From contig DASTAW010000002.1 of NCBI GenBank assembly GCA_035712365.1, forward strand, positions 1 to 64,000: a stretch of 64,000 nt of DNA. The letters are read 5' to 3'. The notes under the pieces are model-generated. The model was not told the origin of the DNA, searched no databases, and worked only from the letters and a program-made list of their open reading frames with translations. Origin of the DNA: Terriglobia bacterium (GTDB lineage: Bacteria > Acidobacteriota > Terriglobia > UBA7540). A program made the translations under genes and the position numbers. This document shows, in pieces, positions 7,011-51,743 of this stretch (positions are counted from its first letter, which is position 1; every line of letters begins with the position of its first letter).

Positions 7011-7985
7011 TCATCGTCCCTGAAGCTGATTATTATTCATGTGGTCGCTTAATTCTGTTGGAACGGCGAGTGTTCCTGAAACTTCTCCTCTTCCAATCTG
7101 TGAAACAATCAGCCGAAGAGGGTACTTGCTCCGTGAAGTGTAGAACTGCACGATTTCATTGAGGGCGCGGTCTTTCAACACAACGGACTTGTCATCCACC
7201 ATCATGCGAACGGTGTAGTGCTGCTCTCTGACGCTGGTGGATTCCAGCTCCATTGGGATTGGGCCGATACGATGGAGACCCGCTCCCTTTGAGAGCGTGA
7301 AGGAGACATCGGACGCTTGCACCCTTTCCAGAAGGTAGTTAACGCCATTCTGCGTCTGCTGGATGGCTGAGCGCTGCGTATCGAGTTCGCCCACGACGTT
7401 GCCCAGGCGGTCGGTTGCTGCACGCCATTCATCATGGCTGGCTGCGAGGTTTCCCTGTATCGCATTCAGCTCTTTAGTGGGGACCGTCTGGCCGTTGGTA
7501 GCCGGTGCTTTGGTTGCAAGCTCTGGCGCCTTCACCGAAGCGGGCGCCGTGGCAGCAAGCTTTGTCGATATCGATCGACTGCTTGTGGAATGACTTGGAT
7601 CGCTGGCAGGCGTTTCGCCGCGAAGGCGAGCACCAGGCCGCGCCAAAGATGCAGCCAGCAGACTGCTCTGGCCGGGGGCCGCTTTGGCGGTGGTCGTGCC
7701 GGGCGTTCGTCTGCCGGGCGCCGCGTGCCTTCGCCTTTCAAGTTCGTTCACGCGGTCCTGCATCGACTTCAGTCTGGTCTGGAGCTCCGCGATTCGGGCT
7801 TTGTCGGCGGCGTCTGAAGGGCCTTTGCCGCCAGCCTTCACGTACCGGTAGGTGGCAAAAGCCGACAGTGCGGCAACGAGCAATAGCACCAAGCCTCCTG
7901 GCAGCGGAGATCTCGACAGAGGAGGTTTCGGCTCAACCTTTTTAACGAACACCTGCCTGTCAAATACTGGACCGCCCATGCTCAA
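7011..7985 (-). CDS. Membrane-anchored coiled-coil protein of unknown function
   Basis: A 324-residue protein with a cytoplasmic N-terminus, one transmembrane helix (about residues 29-46), a coiled coil (about 60-90, ARIAELQTRLKSMQDRV), a low-complexity Ala/Thr/Pro linker (about 95-170), a second helical stretch (about 175-225) and a C-terminal beta-rich domain of about 90 residues. I recognise no family. Its ATG follows GGGAG at good spacing, and it lies 9 nt after the PEGA protein gene, so the two are an operon. By context it may act at the envelope with that partner, but no function can be assigned. Confidence 0.7.
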   Translation of the reverse strand: MSMGGPVFDRQVFVKKVEPKPPLSRSPLPGGLVLLLVAALSAFATYRYVKAGGKGPSDAADKARIAELQTRLKSMQDRVNELERRRHAAPGRRTPGTTTAKAAPGQSSLLAASLARPGARLRGETPASDPSHSTSSRSISTKLAATAPASVKAPELATKAPATNGQTVPTKELNAIQGNLAASHDEWRAATDRLGNVVGELDTQRSAIQQTQNGVNYLLERVQASDVSFTLSKGAGLHRIGPIPMELESTSVREQHYTVRMMVDDKSVVLKDRALNEIVQFYTSRSKYPLRLIVSQIGRGEVSGTLAVPTELSDHMNNNQLQGR

Positions 7986-7994
7986 CTCCCTGCT

Positions 7995-8612
7995 TTAGTG
8001 CAGCCCAATCTTCACGGTAGTCGGATAAAGCTGTTTGAGAGGCAGCAGGAACTCTCTTGTCTCGTTCGGCAGGAGATCAATCTCCTGCTCTGCATGGTCC
8101 ATCCGTGGTCCGTTCATCGCCACGTCATATTGACCAGGAGGCAGGACCAGCAGAATCGGTGTTTTGCCCACTGGTTTGCCATCAATCTTCACGTCGGCAT
8201 GGGTTGGTGTCGAACGGAGCATGAGCTTGGCCGCGTTCTTGCCGGCCTGTTTCTCCAGCACTTTTCGGTTTTCCGCCACCGAGCCCTGCTTCATGGAGTC
8301 GAATATATACTTCGGGTTTGCGCCGTCGGTCCGGATTGGTTGGCTCATGATGACCGACGATTTGTCGCCGCCGTTCGCGGTCAGGTCAGGAACTGCCACC
8401 TTGTTCATCATGTTGCTCCTGCTGATGCTGCCGGCAATACCTGAAGTTGCACCGCCGTATTCCGCCGCAGCCTGTGCGTAGAGACAGCTACTTGCCAGAA
8501 CCAAGAGCAGTGATAATTCGATTGCGTGCCAAAGCGGCATCGACACGGATCGCAAAAAGTTGGGCAGCCGCATTGGTTCGGGGTGCTGAAGTCTGCTGTG
8601 GAGTGGGGTCAT
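7995..8612 (-). CDS. PEGA-domain envelope protein
   Basis: Roughly 205 residues. A signal peptide (LSLLLVLASSCLYAQA) is followed by an unremarkable region with KVAVPDLTANGGDKSSV, and then a PEGA domain near residues 135-195: ADVKIDGKPVGKTPILLVL and LPPGQYDVAMNG. PEGA domains are small extracytoplasmic beta-sandwiches, common in Acidobacteria and usually attached to envelope or signalling proteins. Two ATGs lie six bases apart (8618 and 8612); GGAAAGGA is spaced correctly for 8612. First gene of a two-gene operon with the coiled-coil membrane protein. Confidence 0.75.
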   Translation of the reverse strand: MTPLHSRLQHPEPMRLPNFLRSVSMPLWHAIELSLLLVLASSCLYAQAAAEYGGATSGIAGSISRSNMMNKVAVPDLTANGGDKSSVIMSQPIRTDGANPKYIFDSMKQGSVAENRKVLEKQAGKNAAKLMLRSTPTHADVKIDGKPVGKTPILLVLPPGQYDVAMNGPRMDHAEQEIDLLPNETREFLLPLKQLYPTTVKIGLH

Positions 8613-9019
8613 GTTCATCCTTTCCGGTTATCAGTGTTCACTCTGGCACGCGAAGGATCCAGCCCAAACCAGCATTTAGCTGCCCGGCCCTTCAGTCCCT
8701 GGCGCGGGACCCCCTCCCGGCTGCCCCCCGTAGTGTTGGCCTTCCAGAACTTACGTCCTAGGATATATCCTGAATGCGTTTTCGGCAAGCTCCAGATGAG
8801 CTCTCGGGAAGTTGGAAATAGCGATGTGCAGTCAGTTGCAACTTCACAGCCCGACAGAATGTGGTATCGCCTGTGATTTCAGAGGGTTACAAAAAAGAGA
8901 ATTTCAGGGAGTGGATACATTGCAGGATCTGATGAATCAGGCGGACGGATCAATCATGGGCAGGCGATTTTCGGCGGTTTTGGCGGGTAACGGCGGGAAC
9001 CTGCCCCGTTGTGGGAAGT
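8613..9019. other. Gene-free region
   Basis: About 400 bp between two minus-strand genes. Short ORFs on the plus strand are not family-like. It should hold the promoter of the PEGA operon, reading leftward; I see no convincing -35/-10 pair, and no terminator for the dehydrogenase operon. Confidence 0.5.
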
Positions 9020-10078
9020 TCATGGGATCACCGCCATTTTTAATTCTCCGTTGCGGTGCTTCATTTTCTGGAAGAAATGCGGCAATTCGTCAAGCGGGAT
9101 TTCCCCTGTCACAAAATCTGAGGCACGGATTTCTCCTTTCGCCACCGCATCGAGGGCCTTACGGACAAATTGCGGAGTGTGATGGAAGGTCGAGCGCAGC
9201 GTGATTTCTGAATAGTGAAGGAGCGAGGGATCAAACTGCACCTGGCTGCCGCGCGGACACCCTCCGAATAGATTAACGGTGCCGCCGCGACGCACCATCT
9301 GGACGGCCCACTGCCAGGTCTGTGGGATTCCGACTGCTTCAATTACCGAATCAGCGCCGTGACCTCCTTCAGTGAGCTGGCGGACTGCGGAAACCGGGTC
9401 TTCCATCTGTGAGATGTCAAACCCGGCATAGGCGCCAAGCCGTTCCGCAGTACGGACCTGGCTCCTCCTTTTGCCGAGGGCAATCACCCGTGCGCCGCGA
9501 ACTGACAGCACTCGGATGAACTTCAGCCCGATGGGCCCGCATCCCACCACCACCGTGGTGTCGCCGGCTTGAATCCCTGTTTCTTCGATGCCCCGCAGAA
9601 TGCACGCAAGCGGTTCAACCAGGGCGGCGTCCCGGAAGGGCACGTGTGGGGGAATCTCCAGTGTATTTTCCCGAACGATGCGCCCCGGAATCCGGATGTA
9701 CTCAGCGTAGGCGCCGTTGTTAAACAGGAGCGAATTGCAAAGGTTCGACTGGCCTTTGCGGCAAAATATGCAGCTATTACAGGGGGCAGAATTGGCAGGC
9801 ACCACCCAGGATCCAGGCTTCAGCCCGTTAGCGACATCGCTTCCAACTGCTTCGACAATTCCTGAGAGTTCGTGTCCAAAAACAGCCGGAGGTACAATCA
9901 TCTTGGCGTGATAACCTTGCCGCCAGACTTTCAAGTCCGTTCCGCAGGTCAGGGCCACCTTCACCCGTACCAGGACTTCATCCGGAGTGAAGGTCGGTAT
10001 CGGAATTCGTTCAATTTTCAGGTCTTCGCGACCATATAACACCGCGGCGTTCATATCGCCGCTGAGATGAGTTTCCAT
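9020..10078 (-). CDS. Zinc-dependent MDR alcohol dehydrogenase, likely NADP(H)-type (hopanoid operon)
   Basis: A 352-residue medium-chain dehydrogenase/reductase that interconverts an alcohol and a carbonyl. Catalytic-zinc ligands are visible as LTCGTD (Cys45), FGHE (His69, Glu70) and VEP (Glu155). The structural zinc site is PCNSCIFCRKGQSNLC (Cys100, 103, 106, 114). The nucleotide fold has GCGPIG at 179-184. After the second strand, where NAD enzymes carry an acidic residue, this protein has LGKRRS (203-205), which suggests preference for NADP(H) and a reductive role. The ATG overlaps the stop of the upstream dehydrogenase by one base (TAATG). As the last gene of the coupled hpn cluster it may reduce a hopanoid polyol precursor; this is inference. 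An internal ATG at 10054 is an alternative start. Confidence 0.85.
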   Translation of the reverse strand: METHLSGDMNAAVLYGREDLKIERIPIPTFTPDEVLVRVKVALTCGTDLKVWRQGYHAKMIVPPAVFGHELSGIVEAVGSDVANGLKPGSWVVPANSAPCNSCIFCRKGQSNLCNSLLFNNGAYAEYIRIPGRIVRENTLEIPPHVPFRDAALVEPLACILRGIEETGIQAGDTTVVVGCGPIGLKFIRVLSVRGARVIALGKRRSQVRTAERLGAYAGFDISQMEDPVSAVRQLTEGGHGADSVIEAVGIPQTWQWAVQMVRRGGTVNLFGGCPRGSQVQFDPSLLHYSEITLRSTFHHTPQFVRKALDAVAKGEIRASDFVTGEIPLDELPHFFQKMKHRNGELKMAVIP

Positions 10079-11184
10079 TAAGGCACCACTATGATTTTCA
10101 GAGACTCCTCAGTAGGATGAGCTGCCAGATTTAAAGCTTGTTCAATTTCAAAAAGGGGAAACCGGTGAGAAATCAACTTCTGCACCGGAAGTACACGTTC
10201 AAAAATCAGACGGGCAGATTCTTGCTGCAGATCATATGAAGCGCTATAACTGCCGAGGATTTCTTTTTCGTCAATTCCCACCGCCGCGGCAGGAAATTCG
10301 ACGCGCAGCAACGGATCGTTATAGGCAAAAAGGAGGACACGACCTCCGGGGCGGGTCAGTGTCAGGGCCTGCTCCAAGAGTTCACGCTGGGGCGCAGCAA
10401 CCAGCACGACGTCTGCGCCACGGCCCGAAGTGCGAGTGCGGATGGCTTCAACCAGATCCACGCCCACAGGATCAAAGGACTCCTCAGCCCCGAGTTCGAT
10501 GCTTTTCCGGCGGCGTGCCGGCACCGGATCGGCCGTCACCACTCTGCTGCCGGCGCAGATCCGCGCCAACATCATCAGCAGCATGCCGATAGGGCCCTGG
10601 CCCAACACTAGGACCTTGTCCCGCTCCTCGACACGGGCTTTGTAGATGGCCTTCAGGCATGTATTGACAGGTTCGACAAATGAGGCTTCCTCAAAGGAAA
10701 CATGTGGCGGAATCCGGACCATTCCCCGTTCGGCGATCCAATCCATTACACGCACGTATTCCGCGAAGCCTCCTCCGCTGGGGCGGAAGCCGCTGGTGAC
10801 TCCCACCTTCTTGTAGGTGGGGCACTGGGAGTAGAGTTTCTGATCGCAGTAGAAACAAGCGCCGCAGGGAATGTGATGAAATGTCAACACCCTGTCACCC
10901 GTCCGCCACTCTCGTACGCCGGCACCAACCGTTTCAACTGTTCCGGCGATTTCGTGCCCGAATATCTGTGGCGGAGGGAGGAACCCGTGCTTGATCTTCT
11001 TAATGTCAGTTCCGCAGATGCCGCAGGCGCGGACTCGCACCAGCACTTCGCCCTCGGAAATTGCAGGCAGCGGCACCTCCTCAGCGACCACGCGGCCCTG
11101 GCCGCGGTAGACCCCAGCCCACATCCGTTTGCTCGGCTGCTGGAGTTCCGTCGGCGTCCCGGCTTCTGTTCTGATGGTTGTCAT
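10078..11184 (-). CDS. Zinc-dependent MDR alcohol/polyol dehydrogenase, likely NAD-type (hopanoid operon)
   Basis: A 368-residue paralogue-like companion of the next gene. It shows catalytic-zinc residues GICGTD (Cys57), FGHE (His77, Glu78) and VEP (Glu171), a structural-zinc quartet PCGACFYCDQKLYSQC (Cys107, 110, 113, 121), and GQGPIG at 195-200. The second strand ends TADP (Asp219), the usual NAD-binding acid, so its cofactor choice probably differs from its neighbour's. Its ATG overlaps the stop of hpnG as ATGA, and its own stop overlaps the next start. Sorbitol and threonine dehydrogenases are its nearest general relatives, but the tight coupling to hpnG points to hopanoid side-chain chemistry (inference). 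Confidence 0.85.
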   Translation of the reverse strand: MTTIRTEAGTPTELQQPSKRMWAGVYRGQGRVVAEEVPLPAISEGEVLVRVRACGICGTDIKKIKHGFLPPPQIFGHEIAGTVETVGAGVREWRTGDRVLTFHHIPCGACFYCDQKLYSQCPTYKKVGVTSGFRPSGGGFAEYVRVMDWIAERGMVRIPPHVSFEEASFVEPVNTCLKAIYKARVEERDKVLVLGQGPIGMLLMMLARICAGSRVVTADPVPARRRKSIELGAEESFDPVGVDLVEAIRTRTSGRGADVVLVAAPQRELLEQALTLTRPGGRVLLFAYNDPLLRVEFPAAAVGIDEKEILGSYSASYDLQQESARLIFERVLPVQKLISHRFPLFEIEQALNLAAHPTEESLKIIVVP

Positions 11185-11936
11185 TGGCTGATGGCTGGGA
11201 CGCCCAGGTCCATTTTCTCCTGATGTCCGGTTAAAAAAGTTGTGTACCTCTCAAGGTACCGGGCAAGGGCTGTGGCAGCGCGCGCACTTCGCACACCGAG
11301 CTGCGCCAGTGGCCACAGGCGTCGCGGGTCGCCAGCAACCTGGCTTAAGACCTGGACAATGCGAATGCGCCCCGAGTCGTCAAGAGCGCGGTCAAAATCA
11401 CAAGGGACTTCCATCTCAGCGGAATCGGCTACCACTCGCACTGCAACGCAGGGAACATCCAGGCGGCCCATTTCTTGCATCACTGCAAAGGCTTCCATAT
11501 CCACTGCGTCGGCTGCAGCCCCGAGGCGAAATTTCTCCTGCGCCGTTCGCACCACATGGCCGCTGGAAAAAAAACGGTCCACGGGTTTTGCTCCGCACTC
11601 AACGGCAGCGCTGAAAAGACCCTGATCGCTTTCATACGAAACTCCGGCGCTGGCTTTCTGGACTGCCCTTGCAGCCAGAATTTCTCCCGACCGATGCTGA
11701 GGTTTCAGTCCGCCCGCCAGCCCCGAGGCGATACAGATGTCGGGACGGCAATCGGTGAACTTTCTGATTGCCCGCGCCGCGTTCGCCGCTCCGATTCCGG
11801 TGAGGAGCACCCTGACATCCTTTCCTGCTGCCCGTGCGATGAAGACCATGCCGTCGCCGGGAGACGCCTGAAATTTCCGCAGGCGAAGCCATGGTTTGAA
11901 TTCCCACTCCAACGCAAATGTCACCAGAATTCTCAT
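11181..11936 (-). CDS. hpnG: Adenosylhopane nucleoside phosphorylase/nucleosidase HpnG
   Basis: HpnG removes adenine from adenosylhopane, giving (phospho)ribosylhopane, the second step of side-chain elongation. The 251-residue protein has the purine nucleoside phosphorylase/MTA nucleosidase fold: TGIGAANAARAI near residue 46, ASGLAGGLK near 70, and the ribose-binding acidic motif VDMEAFAVMQEMG near 143, followed by VRVVADSA. The N-terminus MRILVTFALEWEFKPW matches the family, and its ATG overlaps the hpnA stop as ATGA. The gene lies directly after hpnA and hpnH, as in many hopanoid clusters. The C-terminal 40 residues extend beyond a minimal nucleosidase. Confidence 0.88.
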   Translation of the reverse strand: MRILVTFALEWEFKPWLRLRKFQASPGDGMVFIARAAGKDVRVLLTGIGAANAARAIRKFTDCRPDICIASGLAGGLKPQHRSGEILAARAVQKASAGVSYESDQGLFSAAVECGAKPVDRFFSSGHVVRTAQEKFRLGAAADAVDMEAFAVMQEMGRLDVPCVAVRVVADSAEMEVPCDFDRALDDSGRIRIVQVLSQVAGDPRRLWPLAQLGVRSARAATALARYLERYTTFLTGHQEKMDLGVPAISQ

Positions 11937-12976
11937 TCGCGTTCCCGGCTTGCTAATGCCGCACGTCCGAAGCCTCTTGCGAGGTTGCTATGGTTGGCGT
12001 AGCCATTCTGTATGTACCAGGCGACGGCCCTCTCGAGTGCAGCCTCCACCGGGCCAGCTCTGAAGCCGAGTTCAGCGGCAGCTTTGGAGCAATCCACGAA
12101 CATTTTGTGCCGCGCCATTCGAACTCCCTCCAACGGGATTCGTGGCTGGCGGTTCAACACGCGCGAACAGACCTGGTCGGCATATCCGGCAGCCATAGCG
12201 ACGGAATGCGGCAGACGAAGACGAGGGCCGGTACGTCCGCTGATTCGCGCCAGAGCATCTAGAACTTCTTTCAGCATCATGTTGCGACCGCCGAGGACGT
12301 ACCGCTCGCCGACGCGTCCGCGCTCCGCAGCTATCCAGTGCCCGAATGCAACGTCTTCAACAGGCACCCAGTTGAGGCCGGTCTCGACGTATGCCGGAAT
12401 CTTGCCGTTCAGGAAATCCACGATGACCTGGCCAGTCGGCGTCGGTTTCCAGTCACCCGGGCCTACCGGAGTGGTGGGATTGACAACCACCAGGGGCAGT
12501 CCTTCGCGCGCCGCCCTCAGCGCTTCTTTCTCGGCGAGGAACTTTGAGCGTTTATAGTGGCCAATCATTTCCTCGATTCCCGCCTCGGTTGCTTCGTTGG
12601 GCAGGGTGACACCGCGGTCTACTGCAATGGTTGCAACGCTGCTGGTGACCACGATTCGCTGAACTCCCACTCTGCGTGCTGCTTCCAGTAAATTCCGTGT
12701 ACCGGTTACGTTGGAATCGTAAATCTCCTGAGGGCGGGAAGCACCCAGGCGGTAATCGGCCGCAACGTGAAAGACCCGATCGGCGCCTTTAATGGCGGGA
12801 CCCAGCGAGCTGAGATCTCGCAGATCGCCGTATACCTTTTCTACCGGCACTCCTTCGAGCGCCAAAAGGCTGCTTTGCGGGCGCACGAGGACCCGGACCT
12901 TTTCGCCACGTTCGGCCAGCGTTCGAGCTACGTGGCTACCCACAAAGCCGCTTGCCCCGGTTACAAGAGAAATCAT
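11933..12976 (-). CDS. hpnA: Hopanoid-associated sugar epimerase-like SDR HpnA
   Basis: An extended short-chain dehydrogenase/reductase of the NAD-dependent epimerase/dehydratase type. The Rossmann motif is VTGASGFVGSHVA at the extreme N-terminus, the catalytic Ser/Thr lies in VVTSSVATIA, and the active-site Tyr and Lys are in HYKRSKFLAE (YxxxK). HpnA is a conserved member of hopanoid clusters whose exact reaction is unsettled. I start at ATG 12976, which overlaps the hpnH stop (ATGA) and puts the Rossmann motif within ten residues; the open frame upstream to 13045 only reads through hpnH. Length from this start is 347 residues. Confidence 0.88.
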   Translation of the reverse strand: MISLVTGASGFVGSHVARTLAERGEKVRVLVRPQSSLLALEGVPVEKVYGDLRDLSSLGPAIKGADRVFHVAADYRLGASRPQEIYDSNVTGTRNLLEAARRVGVQRIVVTSSVATIAVDRGVTLPNEATEAGIEEMIGHYKRSKFLAEKEALRAAREGLPLVVVNPTTPVGPGDWKPTPTGQVIVDFLNGKIPAYVETGLNWVPVEDVAFGHWIAAERGRVGERYVLGGRNMMLKEVLDALARISGRTGPRLRLPHSVAMAAGYADQVCSRVLNRQPRIPLEGVRMARHKMFVDCSKAAAELGFRAGPVEAALERAVAWYIQNGYANHSNLARGFGRAALASRERE

Positions 12977-14034
12977 CCTACGAGTCCATTTGCGTACTGG
13001 GCGCCGTTGCCGTTGCGCCCGCTCTTCGGTTTCGTAAGCTGCCACCTGAGGAGTTTCCAGGTATCGGGGAAATTGCGGTTGGCTCCCAGCACCGCGGAAG
13101 GTTCAAAGCCCACGTGGACCATACAGTGTTCGCATCGAGGATCCTTCCCCGGCCCGTACTTTTCCCAGGGAGTGGATTGCATGAACTCTTTGAAGGTGGC
13201 GTAGTGCCCGTCCGTGATCAGGTAGCACGGACCCTTCCAGCCGCGCGGATTATAAGTAGGATTGCCCCATGCCGTACACTCCAGTTCGCGCTCGCCGCGC
13301 AGATATTCCAAATAGATCGGCGAAGTCATGACGCAGTATTTTTCCAGCAGACGGCTGGCCAGGCGGAACTTCTGATGAATTTCCTGGCGAGACATGAAGA
13401 TTTCTTTGGTCTGGACGGCAAGATAGGAGTAAGCCGGTGAAAGCATGTGCCCGTCCACGCCGAGGCCTCGCAGGAATTCAAACAGTTCCGCGATCTCGTT
13501 CAGGTCTGTCTGCTTGTAAATGGTGGTGTTGGTACACACCTGGAAACCGCGGTCTTTGGCGAACTTGATGGCCTCGACCGCCTCGCGGAAAACCCCGTTG
13601 CGTTCTACGCAGAGGTCGTGGGTGGCCTCCATGCCGTCCAGGTGGATGTTGAAAAACATGCGTGAGGTGGGCTTGTAATCCTGCAGACGTTTTCGAATGA
13701 ACATCCCATTCGTGCAAAGGTAGATGTTCTTCTTGCGGTCCAGGATTTCACTTACCAGGCGCGGCAAGTCAGGATAGATCATTGGCTCGCCGCCGCAAAT
13801 GGAAACGACAGGCGCGCCGCACTCATCCACTGCATTGAGGCATTGCTCGACGGTCAGCTTGTCGCGGATGGTATCTTTATATTCTCGAATGCGTCCACAG
13901 CCTGTGCATGTCAGGTTACAGGCGTGCAACGGTTCCAGCATCATGACCAAAGGAAATTTATCAACGCGATGAAGCCTCTTTCCAGCAATATAGGTACTCA
14001 GATTTGCCGTCAAACTGAGCGGAAATCTCATCAA
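12973..14034 (-). CDS. hpnH: Adenosylhopane synthase HpnH (radical SAM)
   Basis: HpnH joins the 5'-deoxyadenosyl radical to diploptene, forming adenosylhopane, the first committed step of extended hopanoids. The 353-residue protein has the radical SAM cluster motif ACNLTCTGC (Cys39, 43, 46), the SAM-binding GGEPMIYPD near residue 81, and a C-terminal cysteine-containing region (DPRCEHCMVHVGFEPSA) typical of HpnH. The N-terminus MRFPLSLTANLSTYIAGKRL also fits the family. The start overlaps the hpnF stop by 4 nt, so translation is likely coupled to hpnF. Confidence 0.93.
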   Translation of the reverse strand: MMRFPLSLTANLSTYIAGKRLHRVDKFPLVMMLEPLHACNLTCTGCGRIREYKDTIRDKLTVEQCLNAVDECGAPVVSICGGEPMIYPDLPRLVSEILDRKKNIYLCTNGMFIRKRLQDYKPTSRMFFNIHLDGMEATHDLCVERNGVFREAVEAIKFAKDRGFQVCTNTTIYKQTDLNEIAELFEFLRGLGVDGHMLSPAYSYLAVQTKEIFMSRQEIHQKFRLASRLLEKYCVMTSPIYLEYLRGERELECTAWGNPTYNPRGWKGPCYLITDGHYATFKEFMQSTPWEKYGPGKDPRCEHCMVHVGFEPSAVLGANRNFPDTWKLLRWQLTKPKSGRNGNGAQYANGLVG

Positions 14035-16073
14035 TTCCTCCCGTTTTTCTTTCCGTTTCCATTGTGCGGCTCGAATTCGGCTGGCGAAAGGCGAACGGAC
14101 TCCGCCTGCGTTCTGTTCAGACGGAGGTTTTGGTAATGCGCCAGCGCATAAAGTGGGAAGGTATTACGATATAAGGTGTAACACAGATAGAAGACCCGCG
14201 GGAAGCCGGTCCCGGTAAATTCGTTTTCTTTCCAGAAACCCTCTTCGGTCTGTTCGTCCAACAGATATTGCACCGCGTTAGTGACGGCCGGATCATTGAC
14301 GCCGCGGGTGGCCAGCAATCCGATCAGTCCCCATGCCGTTTGTGACGGTGTGCACGGCCCCCTTCCTTTGAGGGAAGGGTCGTCGTAGGAAGCGCATGAT
14401 TCTCCAAAACCGCCCCCCCTGTTCTGAACGGAACAGAGCCAGTCAGCCCCCCTTAGAGCTTCCGGAGTCCGGCCCAGGCCGAAAGCTTCCAGCATCCGCA
14501 GAACGCCGCTGGTTCCGTAGACGTAGTTCACACCCCACCGGCCGTACCACGCTCCTTCCGCCCCCTGCTGTCTTCGCAGATAGCCGAGAGCGCGCTGCAC
14601 CGCAGGGTGCGTAGCCGGCCACCCGAGGCGCGCAACGCACTCCAGCACCCGCGCGGTGACGTCCGCCGTTGAAGGGTCGATCATGGCATTGTGATCAGCA
14701 AACGGTACACGGGTAAGGACTGCACAGTCATTATCACGGTCGAAGGCGCCCCAGCCTCCATCGCGGTTCTGCATGCTGACCAGCCAGTGGAACCCGCGCC
14801 GGAGTGCATGCTCAAGCCGGACCTTGTCCGGATAGGCGACCCGCTGCAGCGCCATCATCACAAAGGAGGCGTCGTCAACATCGGGATAAAAGTCATTCAG
14901 AAATTCAAACGCCCAACCTCCCGGCGGGGCGTCCTGATTCTTCACCTGCCAGTCGCCGGGACCGACAATCTGGCGATCCAGCAGCCATCGCGCGGCATTC
15001 ACCAGGGCCGGATGGTCTGAAGGCAGACCCGCCTCCTCAAGCGAGTACATTGCAATCGCGGTATCCCAGACAGGTGACCGGCAAGGTTGCAGGGAAATCG
15101 TGTCCCCCTTCTCAACCTCGAACCCGCGCAAATGCGCGAGCTCCCGTGCCGTCAGAGGGTCATCAGCAGGATGTCCCATGGCTAGCAAGGCAAAGAGCGA
15201 GTTGAGCATGGCCGGGTAAATAGCCCCCAATCCCTCGCTCCTCTCCAGATGTTCCAGCATCCATCTCTGTGCCCGCGCAAGAGCCATCTTACGCAAGGGC
15301 CTCCAGGGGAGGGACTCGTGCAACTTGAACAAGCGGTCGATGGCAAGAAACAGGTTCCGCCAGGTGATGATTTTCCGGTCCCAGTCAAAGGCCGGAATGT
15401 GACCAGACGCCTCGCGGAAAAGTTCATCAACTCGCGCATGCTTGGGCAGGGGCCAGTGCGGACGCAGAGCGTAGAGGATCGTGAGCGGCACCACGATCGC
15501 GCGCGTCCACGACGACAGGGAGTAAACGTTAAAGAAAAACCAGGACGGAGAAAGCATTAACTCGGGAGGGATTGCCGGCACGTGCTTCCATTCCAAAGCG
15601 CCCCCCAGCGCCAGGTAAAACCGCGTGTAAGAATTGGTCTGTTCAAGCCCCCCGAGGTCGTGGATTCTCAGGCGGGCAGCCGCCATGGCGGGCTCATCCG
15701 GGGAATGGCCGGCCAGCTTCAGTGCGAAGTAAGCTTTGACGGTGGCGTTGAGCTCGGAGGGGCCGCCCAGGTAGATATTCCACCCTCCGTCCGGCAGCTG
15801 CCTGCGGCGTATGGAGTTCGACAGCTTCGCTATCCGCCCGGGAACAAATTGCCCGGCCACGTAAAGAAAAAATATGTAGTCAGATTCCAGAGTGGAATCG
15901 GCGTGTAGTTCGCCGACCCAGTAGCCCTCTGGTGATTGCAAGGAAAGCAGATGCTCGGACGCCCGGGCAATCGCCCGTTCGACGCGTTGATCGAGGCCAG
16001 CATCCAATGCTCCGACCGCACCGCCGTCTTTGAACGATTCGAGCTCTACTCTCGCTTCCTGTGTCATGAACAC
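14031..16073 (-). CDS. hpnF: Squalene-hopene cyclase HpnF/Shc
   Basis: Cyclises squalene to hopene/diplopterol at the membrane. The 680-residue length is typical. QW-type repeats are seen along the chain: QSPEGYWVGELHADST, QNRDGGWGAFD, QGAEGAWYGRWGVNYVYG, QNRGGGFGE and QTEEGFWKE. The upstream signature LQPCRSPVWDTA (about 329-339) is present. The catalytic DXDDTA box reads DVDDAS (398-403): all three acids are kept but Thr is Ala. The ATG could be codon 1 or codon 3. It lies 20 nt after ispH and overlaps hpnH. The organism must supply squalene from genes outside the window. Confidence 0.93.
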   Translation of the reverse strand: MFMTQEARVELESFKDGGAVGALDAGLDQRVERAIARASEHLLSLQSPEGYWVGELHADSTLESDYIFFLYVAGQFVPGRIAKLSNSIRRRQLPDGGWNIYLGGPSELNATVKAYFALKLAGHSPDEPAMAAARLRIHDLGGLEQTNSYTRFYLALGGALEWKHVPAIPPELMLSPSWFFFNVYSLSSWTRAIVVPLTILYALRPHWPLPKHARVDELFREASGHIPAFDWDRKIITWRNLFLAIDRLFKLHESLPWRPLRKMALARAQRWMLEHLERSEGLGAIYPAMLNSLFALLAMGHPADDPLTARELAHLRGFEVEKGDTISLQPCRSPVWDTAIAMYSLEEAGLPSDHPALVNAARWLLDRQIVGPGDWQVKNQDAPPGGWAFEFLNDFYPDVDDASFVMMALQRVAYPDKVRLEHALRRGFHWLVSMQNRDGGWGAFDRDNDCAVLTRVPFADHNAMIDPSTADVTARVLECVARLGWPATHPAVQRALGYLRRQQGAEGAWYGRWGVNYVYGTSGVLRMLEAFGLGRTPEALRGADWLCSVQNRGGGFGESCASYDDPSLKGRGPCTPSQTAWGLIGLLATRGVNDPAVTNAVQYLLDEQTEEGFWKENEFTGTGFPRVFYLCYTLYRNTFPLYALAHYQNLRLNRTQAESVRLSPAEFEPHNGNGKKNGRN

Positions 16074-16093: not shown

Positions 16094-17062
16094 TTAGACC
16101 TTCAATTCCGCAGGCAGGGCAAAGCGAACGTCTTCTTCAATCCACTCGACTTCCTCTACTCGCGTAAAGCCCCATTCCTTCAGGCGATCGACAACTTGCC
16201 GGACCAGCACTTCCGGCGTCGACGCACCTGCGGTGACACCAATACGGCGGTGGCCGTTGACCCATTCAGGGAGGATATCGTCAGCGTTGCCGATCAGGTA
16301 TGCGACCGTCCCTCCGCGCCGCGCAACTTCCACCAGCCGGTTTGAATTGGAACTGTTTTGGGCTCCCACCACCAGGATTCCATCAGCCTTGGGGGCGATG
16401 GCCTTGACGGCCATCTGCCGGTTCTGAGTGGCGTAGCAGATGTCCTGTCCCGGCGGCCCGATAATGGCGGGGAATCGCTGTTTGAGCCGGTCCACGATTT
16501 CCGCTGTGTCGTCAAGGCTTAAGGTGGTCTGCGTCAGATAGACGATCCGGTTGGGATCAGGTGGATCCAGGGTCTCCACGTCCTCGACTGAGGAAATCAA
16601 CCGGATTACTTCGGGGGCTTCCCCGAGCGTACCGATCATCTCGTCGTGGTCCCGGTGGCCGATAAGGACAATGGTATATTTTTCGCGGGCGTACCGGATC
16701 ACCTCCAGATGGACCTTAGTGACCAGTGGGCAGGTGGCGTCAATGATGCGAAGCTGCCGGGCGCGTGCTTCCTCGCGAACTGCCGGCGAGACTCCATGAG
16801 CACTGAAAATAACTGCTGCCCCTGTCGGCACCTCTTCAAGGTTTTCGACAAATACGGCGCCCTGGCCGGCCAACTCGTCTACAACATAACGGTTATGAAC
16901 AATCTCCCGCCGCACATAAACCGGAGGTCCCAGCTTGTCGAGAACCATGCGGACAACATCAATGGCGCGAATGACGCCCGCGCAAAAGCCTCTGGGTCGC
17001 AACAGCATCAAAGTTCCTGGTTCAGCGCGAGACGAGTTCTCGACGTGAGGAGCCACGTTCAT
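16094..17062 (-). CDS. ispH: 4-hydroxy-3-methylbut-2-enyl diphosphate reductase IspH
   Basis: Last enzyme of the MEP isoprenoid pathway, making IPP and DMAPP with a [4Fe-4S] cluster in the cytoplasm. The three cluster cysteines are in PRGFCAGVIRAID, DATCPLVTKVH and QDICYATQNRQ. The substrate-binding motifs FSAHGVSP and NSSNSNRL are also visible. I place the start at ATG 17062, giving 322 residues, close to the family norm; the frame is open to 17188 but the extra 42 residues are not IspH-like. First gene of the ispH-hpnF-hpnH-hpnA-hpnG-MDR-MDR run, which links precursor supply to hopanoid synthesis. Confidence 0.93.
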   Translation of the reverse strand: MNVAPHVENSSRAEPGTLMLLRPRGFCAGVIRAIDVVRMVLDKLGPPVYVRREIVHNRYVVDELAGQGAVFVENLEEVPTGAAVIFSAHGVSPAVREEARARQLRIIDATCPLVTKVHLEVIRYAREKYTIVLIGHRDHDEMIGTLGEAPEVIRLISSVEDVETLDPPDPNRIVYLTQTTLSLDDTAEIVDRLKQRFPAIIGPPGQDICYATQNRQMAVKAIAPKADGILVVGAQNSSNSNRLVEVARRGGTVAYLIGNADDILPEWVNGHRRIGVTAGASTPEVLVRQVVDRLKEWGFTRVEEVEWIEEDVRFALPAELKV

Positions 17063-17276
17063 TGGTTTACCATCATCCTTTCCTGTTACATACCCTCTAA
17101 AGATAATCCTCTCATGGTCTTTCCGCACCGTCAAGATAAGCGCAGGATCCAATCCTTTCCGGACCGCGAGGGTTTGGTCGCTGCGCATACCTGACCCTCT
17201 GGATTTATTGATGTACCCATCCGGCGAAACGATGCATCATATCCACGGAGGGTTTACTATTTCTGTCACTGCTCTC

Positions 17277-18602: not shown

Positions 18603-20111
18603 ATGGTGTCTGTTTTGAAGACGCTGTTGCTGAATCCTCCGAGTTTCGAGAAGTTTGATGGCGGCGCAAGTTCGAGGTGGCCCGCCACGCGCGAGATTGA
18701 GTCTTACTGGTACCCCGTGTGGCTCACCTATCCCGCGGGAATGCTGCCCGGCAGCCGCCTGCTGGATGCCCCTCCGCACAAAATTACTCCTCAGCAGACC
18801 GTCGAAATCGCCAAGGACTATGAGTTTGTGGTCCTTTTCACGTCCGCTGTCGGTTTTGAGAACGACGTTGAGCTTGTCCGCCGGATGAAGGAGGCAAAGC
18901 CCGGCCTCCGAGTAGCCTTTGTGGGACCTCCCGTGCAGGTGAAGCCCGATGAAAGCTTGATGGCCAGCGACGACATCGATTTTATTGTGCGCGGCGAATT
19001 TGATTATGCCGTGGTGGAGTTTGCGCAGGGTAAGCCGCTCAGCGAGATTCTCGGCGCCAGTTATCGCAAGGACGGGAAAATCGTCCACAATCCGCCGCGA
19101 AAGGAACTGCAGACGGAGGATTTGGACCGCCTGCCGTTTGCCACGGAGGTCTACAAGCGCGACCTGAGCATTGAGAATTACAACGTTCCTTTTCTGCTTC
19201 ATCCCTTCGTCTCGTTCTATTCTTCGCGCGGGTGTCCCGCCCTTTGCACCTTCTGCCTGTGGCCGCAGACACTTTCGGGTCATGCCTGGCGGACACGCTC
19301 CGTCGACAACGTGGTTACGGAAATCGGGCAGGCTCTCAAGCTGTTCCCGCAGGCGAAGGAATTCTTCTTCGATGATGACACTTTCAATATCCGTAAGGAC
19401 CGCGTCATCGAACTGTCAAAGAAATTCAAACCGCTGGGTTTCCGCTGGTCCTGCACGGCCCGCGTCCACAGCGACTATGAAACCCTCAAAGCCATGGCTG
19501 ACGGCGGCGCCCGGCTCTTTATCGTGGGTTTTGAATCCGGCGACGATCAGATACTGAAGAACATCAAGAAAGGCGCAACCGCGGAAATGGGCCGCAGGTT
19601 CGCGAAGAACTGCAAGCAGCTCGGCATAGCAATCCACGCCGACTTCATCATCGGGCTTCCGGGTGAGACACCCGAAACCATCGAGCGCACCATCGATTTT
19701 GCGAGGGAATTGGACTCGGAAACCATCCAGGTTTCCCTTGCGCACGGCTATCCGGGGACGGAAATGTACAACCAGTTGTTGCAGGCTGGCCAGTTGGTGA
19801 ATCTTCCCATGTCTGACACCAACGGCCACCAACTGCCTCACATTCAATATCCGGGCCTGTCGACGGCGCAGATGATGGACGCCGTCAACCGCTTCTACGA
19901 TGAGTATTACTTCAGGCCGCGAGTGGTGTGGCGAATCGTACGCAAGGCGCTCTGGGACAAAGACGAGCGTAAGCGCCTGTACCAGGAAGGCGTGGAGTTT
20001 CTCCGGTTGCGGAGTGAGCGGCTTAAATTTGCCCGCCAGGGACCCGTGAAGGCAACCTCCATCAGCGTGCCGGCGATCGACCTGGCTTCCGAGCCTCCAT
20101 CGAACTCCTGA
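18603..20111 (+). CDS. hpnJ: Hopanoid biosynthesis radical SAM enzyme HpnJ
   Basis: In other bacteria HpnJ converts bacteriohopanetetrol glucosamine to the cyclitol ether, by radical ring contraction. The 502-residue protein has an N-terminal B12-binding-like domain (VVLFTSAVGFENDVELV, FVGPPVQVKPDESL), then the radical SAM motif RGCPALCTFCLWPQT (Cys211, 215, 218) and FFFDDDTFN, and the IGLPGETPETIE motif near residue 350. The order and sequence match HpnJ rather than generic B12 radical SAM proteins. A weak TACAAT -10 lies at 18531-18536. It heads a plus-strand run with two small transporters and an HpnI-type transferase. HpnK, its usual partner, is not in the window. Confidence 0.88.
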   Translation: MVSVLKTLLLNPPSFEKFDGGASSRWPATREIESYWYPVWLTYPAGMLPGSRLLDAPPHKITPQQTVEIAKDYEFVVLFTSAVGFENDVELVRRMKEAKPGLRVAFVGPPVQVKPDESLMASDDIDFIVRGEFDYAVVEFAQGKPLSEILGASYRKDGKIVHNPPRKELQTEDLDRLPFATEVYKRDLSIENYNVPFLLHPFVSFYSSRGCPALCTFCLWPQTLSGHAWRTRSVDNVVTEIGQALKLFPQAKEFFFDDDTFNIRKDRVIELSKKFKPLGFRWSCTARVHSDYETLKAMADGGARLFIVGFESGDDQILKNIKKGATAEMGRRFAKNCKQLGIAIHADFIIGLPGETPETIERTIDFARELDSETIQVSLAHGYPGTEMYNQLLQAGQLVNLPMSDTNGHQLPHIQYPGLSTAQMMDAVNRFYDEYYFRPRVVWRIVRKALWDKDERKRLYQEGVEFLRLRSERLKFARQGPVKATSISVPAIDLASEPPSNS

Positions 20112-50714: not shown

Positions 50715-51743
50715 TCACGGCCGCAGCAGGATTTTTCCAAAAAAGTCGCGACCCTCCATTTTCCGCTGCGCTTGGCGGACTTCTGCCAGCGGAAAGACGG
50801 AATCGATCACGGGCTTCAGCTTGCGCTGGCCGATCAGCTTGAGAACGTCCATCAATTCCCCTTTGCCGCCCATGTAGGAGCCCAGGATGCTCCGCTGCCG
50901 CCCGAACAGTGCCTGGATGTTCAGCTTGACTTCAGGGCCGGTGGTCGCGCCGCAAGTGACGAGGCGCCCATAGGTGGCCAGTGAGTTGAAGCAGCCCTCC
51001 CACACGGCATGGCCCACGTGCTCCACAATCACGTCCACGCCGCGCTTGCCGGTCAGCCGCGCCACTTCTTCGGCAACGGACTGCTGCGTGTGATTGATGC
51101 CTTCGTCGGCGCCAAGCTCGCGCGCTTTGGTAAGCTTTTCGTCGCTGCCCGCTGTAGCGATCACGCGGCATCCCACAAGCTTTGCCACCTGGATAGCAGC
51201 GATGCCCACTCCCGATCCCGCTCCGACCACCAGGACGTCTTCGCCAGGCCGCAGCACGGCCCGGCTGATGAGCATGTGCCAGGCCGTCAGAAAAACCAGC
51301 GGTACGGAAGCGGCTTCTTCAAAATTCAGATCGCCGGGAATTGGAACCACGTTCATCGCTGGCGACTTCACATATTCGGCATAGCCGCCGTCCGCCATCA
51401 CGCCGAAAATAGTGAAGCTGCGGCAGGCGCTGTCCAGGCCTTTCCAGCAGGTCTCGCACTGCCCGCAACTAATCCCCGGAGCCAGCAGGACCCGGTCGCC
51501 CGGCTTTGCATTCGTCACTAGCGCGCCAACCTGCGCCACCTCGCCAGAGATGTCGCTGCCTACAATGTGCGGCATGGGCAATTTCCAGACGCGCACGCCG
51601 CTGCGCATCCAGAGGTCAAGATGGTTCAGCGCGCAGGCTTTCACCTTCACCAGGACCTCCGTCGGCTGGATTACCGGATCAGGCGCGTCTTCATATTTCA
51701 AAACTTCCAGGCCGCCGTGCTCATGGAATCGGACTGCTTTCAT
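50715..51743 (-). CDS. Zinc-binding-type MDR oxidoreductase (quinone oxidoreductase-like)
   Basis: A 342-residue medium-chain dehydrogenase. The N-terminus MKAVRFHEHGGLEVLKYED is of the quinone-oxidoreductase branch, but structural-zinc cysteines are present (GISCGQCETCWKGLDSAC), and catalytic-site Asn replaces Cys in ALNHLDLW, followed by VGSDISG where GHE would be. So it has kept a structural zinc but probably not a catalytic one. The nucleotide motif is GAGSGVG. The C-terminus ends in GRDFFGKILLRP, typical of the family. Substrate unknown; monocistronic. Confidence 0.85.
   Translation of the reverse strand: MKAVRFHEHGGLEVLKYEDAPDPVIQPTEVLVKVKACALNHLDLWMRSGVRVWKLPMPHIVGSDISGEVAQVGALVTNAKPGDRVLLAPGISCGQCETCWKGLDSACRSFTIFGVMADGGYAEYVKSPAMNVVPIPGDLNFEEAASVPLVFLTAWHMLISRAVLRPGEDVLVVGAGSGVGIAAIQVAKLVGCRVIATAGSDEKLTKARELGADEGINHTQQSVAEEVARLTGKRGVDVIVEHVGHAVWEGCFNSLATYGRLVTCGATTGPEVKLNIQALFGRQRSILGSYMGGKGELMDVLKLIGQRKLKPVIDSVFPLAEVRQAQRKMEGRDFFGKILLRP

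Follow-up and report, generated by a model that had tools for sequence, protein, structure and literature searches.

A 64,000-nucleotide (nt) stretch of DNA from a Terriglobia bacterium of the phylum Acidobacteriota (contig DASTAW010000002.1; called the window below, meaning the whole stretch analysed) contains a cluster of hopanoid genes that includes two adjacent dehydrogenase genes, here named DhB and DhA. On the evidence of gene order and co-occurrence with HpnH, the DhB/DhA pair appears to be a hopanoid-pathway module conserved in two phyla, Acidobacteriota and Armatimonadota, and its link to hopanoids is strong. Some role of the pair in hopanoid side-chain or post-cyclisation metabolism is very likely. 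More specifically, we propose, as a reading that we hold to be evenly balanced, that DhB and DhA cooperate on the side chain that C35 hopanoids derive from ribose, with DhA most likely being the enzyme that reduces ribosylhopane.

HpnH and HpnG together yield ribosylhopane, and reduction at C-35 then gives bacteriohopanetetrol (BHT) (PMC12583986). An earlier note on this DNA remarked that the reductase lacks a firm assignment, and this is still so: in 2025 the enzyme was still being described as not established (PMC12583986), and PMC5462960 also states it to be unknown.

Sequence and structure of DhA and DhB

DhA (positions 9020..10078) and DhB (10078..11184), both on the minus strand, are 29% identical in sequence. 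Each scores above cut-off for PF08240 (ADH_N) and PF00107 (ADH_zinc_N), with 82.3 and 74.1 bits for DhA and 96.5 and 70.1 bits for DhB, against cut-offs of 23.5 and 31.8. Judged by sequence, both are intact zinc-dependent medium-chain dehydrogenase/reductase (MDR) enzymes of the polyol-dehydrogenase kind, that is, of the sorbitol-dehydrogenase/ketose-reductase type.

Conservation was followed in alignments of 43 DhB and 44 DhA orthologues, drawn from Acidobacteriota and Armatimonadota. The catalytic zinc site (C57, H77 and E78 with second-shell E171 in DhB; C45, H69 and E70 with second-shell E155 in DhA) and the structural zinc site (C107, C110, C113 and C121 in DhB; C100, C103, C106 and C114 in DhA) are invariant in all of them, so that the retention of both sets of zinc ligands, which the earlier note had read from the one genome, extends to these orthologues. 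The two enzymes differ in the loop that follows the second Rossmann strand. Residue 219 of DhB is acidic in every orthologue (D in 41, E in 2), as in NAD(H)-type enzymes. At the corresponding place DhA is of NADP(H) type: residue 203 is K or R in 43/44, R204 is present in 38/44, and position 207 is Q, R or K in 44/44. The loop residues singled out in the earlier note, D219 in DhB and Lys-Arg-Arg in DhA, are conserved except for the third residue of the latter motif (R205). Because the loop residues are kept across orthologues in two phyla, the opposite cofactor types predicted for DhB and DhA are an old and conserved trait, and no quirk of one genome.

The AlphaFold models are confident, with a predicted local distance difference test (pLDDT) score of 94.6 for DhB and 94.3 for DhA. 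Along their full length they resemble solved alcohol and polyol dehydrogenases, and the best match is a zinc dehydrogenase for both, at Z 42 for DhB and Z 44 for DhA. For DhA the nearest solved structure is 4ej6/4ejm, a Sinorhizobium dehydrogenase (Z 44; 4ejm is NADP-bound), followed by sorbitol dehydrogenases and the ketose reductase 1e3j at around Z 41; the fold of DhB is sorbitol-dehydrogenase-like and matches the same set of structures at Z 39–42. A sequence-profile search likewise gave 1e3j and 4ej6 as the top solved relatives of both proteins. The pair shares with 1pl6, 1e3j and 4ejm a common fold (Z 39–44), the catalytic Cys-His-Glu site and the four-Cys structural zinc site, and the NADP-type members of that group have basic residues in the cofactor loop, as DhA does. 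The pair differs from them in sequence, with an identity of only 25–34%, and DhB and DhA each form a clade of their own (tree support 0.999 for DhB, at a node that also includes four distant relatives, and 0.98 for DhA). The substrates of known members of this type are small polyols, or are unknown, and are not membrane lipids.

DhA and DhB fall in no named NCBIfam equivalog. Among NCBIfam models DhA scores highest with scyllo-inosose 3-dehydrogenase IolM (NF041097), and L-threonine 3-dehydrogenase (TIGR00692) is among the best-scoring named families for the pair. Membership of either family is ruled out by the scores, which lie far under the cut-offs: IolM requires 450 bits and scores 165.4 and 145.1, and L-threonine 3-dehydrogenase requires 458.35 bits and scores 142.2 and 150.2. 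The window contains a further zinc-binding dehydrogenase gene at 50715-51743, outside the hopanoid cluster (PF00107, 118.8 bits), which lies apart from both DhA and DhB in the tree.

Linkage to hopanoid genes

Loci were surveyed for the best 80 of 157 DhB homologues in GTDB genomes, 78 of them acidobacterial and two armatimonadotal; this sample is biased towards close relatives, a bias that the phylum surveys described below serve to offset. DhA lies directly behind DhB in 73 of the 78 acidobacterial loci, and three of the remaining five are cut by a contig end. The earlier note had named homologues lying mostly outside hopanoid clusters, beside polyol genes, as one observation that would speak against the proposed role; in fact at least one other hopanoid gene is found within 10 kilobases (kb) in 76/78 loci. 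The neighbours include HpnC/D-type synthases (69 loci), HpnG (65), HpnA (64), HpnE (52) and HpnJ (32), and the typical acidobacterial order is ispH, shc, (hpnH), hpnA, hpnG, DhB, DhA, hpnC, hpnD, hpnE. A chance arrangement is unlikely, because dozens of genomes share this gene order. Within the window's class, one genus has DhA separated from DhB and retains both. The armatimonadotal arrangement is different: the hopanoid core there is shc-hpnH-hpnA-ispH-hpnG and the pair is located elsewhere, directly before hpnC-hpnD-hpnE in 6 of 17 loci. Of the three genomes with no detected HpnH, two are among these six.

In the window, the same-strand run is opened by ispH (16094..17188, minus strand like all genes of the run; NF002189, 455.9 bits, cut-off 444; TIGR00216 also above cut-off). 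It continues with shc, encoding squalene-hopene cyclase (14031..16073; TIGR01507, 740.6 bits, cut-off 431.1), hpnH, encoding adenosylhopane synthase (12973..14034; TIGR03470, 432.7 bits, cut-off 225.05), hpnA, encoding an extended short-chain dehydrogenase/reductase (SDR) protein (11933..12976, with a longer GTG start possible at 13045; TIGR03466, 445.8 bits, cut-off 367.65), and a gene for an HpnG-like nucleoside phosphorylase (11181..11936), before reaching DhB and DhA. The successive spacings from ispH to DhA are 20, −4, −4, −4, −4 and −1 nt. Reading the junctions in the sequence bore out the coordinates and the overlaps reported in the earlier note for hpnG, DhB and DhA, in the same chain as hpnH and hpnA: the 4-nt overlap of hpnG with DhB is ATGA, and the 1-nt overlap of DhB with DhA is TAATG. 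The divergent gene hpnJ, encoding a hopanoid radical S-adenosylmethionine protein, lies at 18603..20111 on the plus strand (TIGR03471, 715.8 bits, cut-off 577.6).

The HpnG-like protein is above cut-off for PF01048 and has TIGR03468 as its best NCBIfam match, at 99.7 bits, which is below the equivalog cut-off of 187.1; its context and domain family fit HpnG. The cut-off of TIGR03468 is reached in none of 52 acidobacterial and armatimonadotal genomes, where the top HpnG-like score is 140 bits. Because of these low scores, hpnG is probably missed by automatic annotation in both phyla.

Other observations on these loci are that the two genes downstream of DhA in the window (7011-8618), one encoding a PEGA-domain protein and the other a protein of no known family, have relatives in only one of the loci examined (L010), and that ispH lies between hpnA and hpnG in armatimonadotal clusters (L266 11189-12313, L267 7873-8796, L268 11592-12527), echoing the acidobacterial ispH beside shc.

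Neither the cluster nor the two genes are new. Sinninghe Damsté et al. in 2017 described unidentified genes ug1 and ug2 in acidobacterial hopanoid clusters (PMC5462960). In that paper, ug1 comes after hpnA-hpnG, as DhB does, and ug2, whose product has about 350 amino acids and is frequently labelled a Zn-binding alcohol dehydrogenase, precedes hpnC-hpnD-hpnE, as DhA does; from position, DhB is very probably ug1 and DhA ug2. The text of the paper gives no side-chain function for either gene and ties ug2 to the squalene genes, and, unlike the present analysis, it has no treatment of the two genes as a pair, no test of cofactor residues and no survey of Armatimonadota. What is added here is the conserved pairing of an NAD-type with an NADP-type enzyme, the association with HpnH and not HpnE, and a second phylum in which the pair lies outside the hpnH cluster.

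Co-occurrence with HpnH

We then turn to the surveys of 149 Acidobacteriota and 151 Armatimonadota genomes. DhB orthologues were accepted at an identity of at least 48% in Acidobacteriota and at least 41% in Armatimonadota (next best 39% in both). HpnH is above cut-off in 35 of the acidobacterial genomes and DhB is present in 20, of which 19 have HpnH; the one that does not (G113) does have Shc. Among the Armatimonadota, HpnH occurs in 30 genomes and DhB in 17, 14 of these with HpnH. Fisher tests of DhB against HpnH, which carry no correction for phylogeny, give 1.5e-13 for Acidobacteriota and 3.5e-9 for Armatimonadota. Hitch-hiking within an operon fails to explain this co-occurrence, because the armatimonadotal pair sits outside the shc-hpnH-hpnA-hpnG cluster. 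Furthermore, Armatimonadota with and without the pair are interspersed in the HpnH tree, which makes an artefact of a single clade less likely, though this is no species-tree test. More distant pairs (31–44% identity) are present in two HpnH-bearing families (f47 and f32).

In the HpnH tree, the proteins of the window and of one other genome (G095) branch apart from those of the remaining genomes sampled in this class, and the rest of the cluster is orthologous. This points to a probable swap of HpnH inside an otherwise conserved cluster; the pair would then have outlasted the change of HpnH, because the window HpnH is on a different branch and the pair is orthologous. In another genome (G029) a TAA stop splits hpnH into two readable parts (L194 9942-10946). 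One genome with HpnH and without HpnG, HpnA or the pair (G007) was not used as support: HpnE is also absent from it and its contig ends soon after hpnH, so that an assembly gap is possible.

Proposed function

What the data show is the order and orthology of the genes, their domains, their zinc and cofactor residues, and their linkage and co-occurrence; the place of the pair in the pathway is inferred. HpnH attaches a 5′-deoxyadenosyl group, and HpnG then removes the adenine to leave ribosylhopane. Most likely, the NADP(H)-type DhA would reduce ribosylhopane in its open-chain form, at the C-35 aldehyde, and so produce BHT, with its zinc polarising the carbonyl; DhA fits this role because an NADPH-type zinc polyol dehydrogenase could carry out such a reduction. 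The NAD(H)-type DhB may also work on this polyol tail, perhaps as a further carbonyl reductase or polyol oxidase, or it may reset a hydroxyl. That at least one of the two enzymes is the ribosylhopane reductase is close to an even call, and we favour it over redox tailoring of the tetrol. Slightly less assured is the broader statement that the pair, possibly as an obligate two-enzyme step via a keto intermediate, is the missing step from ribosylhopane to BHT in Acidobacteriota and Armatimonadota, and one of several unrelated bacterial solutions to it.

An activity that reduces ribosylhopane has been reported in a cell-free extract of Methylobacterium organophilum (Bodlenner et al., 2015, cited in PMC12583986). 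This is the same reaction as is proposed here for the pair, and the gene behind it is unknown. The M. organophilum activity reportedly uses NADPH.

Several observations weigh against a ribosylhopane reductase. Secondary alcohols and ketones are the main substrates of the close solved homologues; ribosylhopane calls for the reduction of an aldehyde. One reductase would suffice, yet two dehydrogenases are conserved. The orthologous pair is absent from 16 of the 35 HpnH-bearing Acidobacteriota and 16 of the 30 HpnH-bearing Armatimonadota, which argues against a universal role, and BHT is reported in Chloracidobacterium without ug2 (PMC5462960). Three Armatimonadota genomes have DhB without HpnH, HpnG or HpnA, and two genomes (G078 and G132) carry related pairs (31–44% identity) without HpnH or Shc, G132 also having a 52% relative of DhA. 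Finally, the presence of Shc and that of HpnH nearly coincide, so that co-occurrence alone cannot place the pair after HpnG or distinguish a role at some other hopanoid step. The suggestion of the earlier note, that one or both genes fill the reductase gap, is partly supported: it gains from the hopanoid module in two phyla, the company of HpnH and the conserved cofactor split, and loses from the lack of the pair in about half of the HpnH genomes and from the sufficiency of one enzyme.

Alternative explanations

The best-surviving alternative, which we consider unlikely though far from negligible, is redox tailoring of the finished tetrol. DhB would oxidise a secondary hydroxyl (e.g. at C-34) with NAD+, and DhA, using NADPH, would reduce the resulting ketone from the opposite face. 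The product would be a stereoisomer, or a keto intermediate that is modified further; ribosylhopane would be reduced by a different, unlinked enzyme. The conserved opposite cofactor types suit oxidation followed by reduction (epimerisation of a hydroxyl) better than they suit two reductases, although cofactor type alone does not set the direction of a reaction. The nearest solved relatives, being secondary-alcohol polyol dehydrogenases and a ketose reductase, and the patchy presence of the pair among HpnH genomes are also as a tailoring step would predict. Against this, we know of no acidobacterial or armatimonadotal hopanoid product that would require redox tailoring. Rohmer degradation does not report side-chain stereochemistry. 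It is the method used in the 2017 survey (PMC5462960).

A function in general sugar or polyol metabolism, with the linkage to hopanoid genes arising by chance or history, is improbable. DhA and DhB are ordinary MDR enzymes, some armatimonadotal pairs and distant relatives are placed among unrelated genes, and the distant pairs of G078 and G132 occur without hopanoid genes. Such a function does not account for linkage in two phyla, or for co-occurrence even where the pair is outside the hpnH cluster, and the annotated neighbours include no recurrent gene for sugar transport or catabolism.

Still less probable is a service to squalene synthesis by HpnC, HpnD and HpnE, which commonly follow DhA in Acidobacteriota and do so at the six armatimonadotal loci mentioned above. 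We know of no HpnCDE step between farnesyl diphosphate and squalene that calls for a zinc polyol dehydrogenase. HpnE is found in 38 Acidobacteriota: none of the 19 without HpnH has the orthologous pair and 15 of the 19 with HpnH do (Fisher 5e-7, again with no phylogeny correction), and HpnE is absent from five pair-bearing genomes. The association of ug2 with hpnC-E was suggested in 2017 (PMC5462960); a squalene role of the pair is rejected on this pattern of presence and absence. The pair tracks HpnH rather than HpnE, and this speaks for the hopanoid side chain, or at a minimum for some post-cyclisation step, rather than for squalene.

Least probable of all is that the pair makes or processes a sugar headgroup used with HpnJ in lipids of the BHT cyclitol ether type (e.g. 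by sugar or cyclitol oxidation), as might be suggested by hpnJ nearby in the window and in 32/78 loci and by the scyllo-inosose 3-dehydrogenase score of DhA, far under cut-off as it is, since hpnA, hpnG and hpnC-E, rather than hpnJ, lie nearest to the pair and accompany it most regularly, and the known route from BHT to the cyclitol ether (HpnI, HpnK, HpnJ) needs no dehydrogenase (PMC12583986).

HpnH-bearing genomes without the pair

A replacement reductase was sought in 28 stretches from HpnH-bearing genomes without the orthologous pair, by clustering the neighbours and annotating selected ones; no recurrent aldehyde reductase was found near hpnG or hpnH in these stretches. The annotated neighbours are isopentenyl diphosphate isomerase, 3-hydroxy-3-methylglutaryl-CoA reductase, squalene synthase, an F420-type oxidoreductase, outer-membrane efflux proteins, HisA-like proteins and a GFO/IDH/MocA oxidoreductase. 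The F420-type enzyme is luciferase-like and is encoded next after hpnG (L196 6746-7801) in an HpnH-positive genome of family f47 that has no close pair (G089). In two Armatimonadota (G183 and G197), two tandem genes for HisA-like isomerases directly follow hpnG (L310 5921-7397, L312 8640-10115); one is a clear HisA and the other scores under the cut-offs for HisA. Because the substrate of HisA is a ribose-derived aldose, this second copy may merit attention.

Implications

Bacteriohopanetetrol is the parent of most bacterial hopanoid polyols and a source of the hopane biomarkers read in rocks. The finding that the pair follows hpnH across two phyla makes the reductase gap in its synthesis testable, and the pair is usable as a marker of the side-chain branch in soil Acidobacteriota. 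If DhB and DhA instead alter the stereochemistry of the side chain, this would matter wherever tetrol isomers are used as environmental markers.

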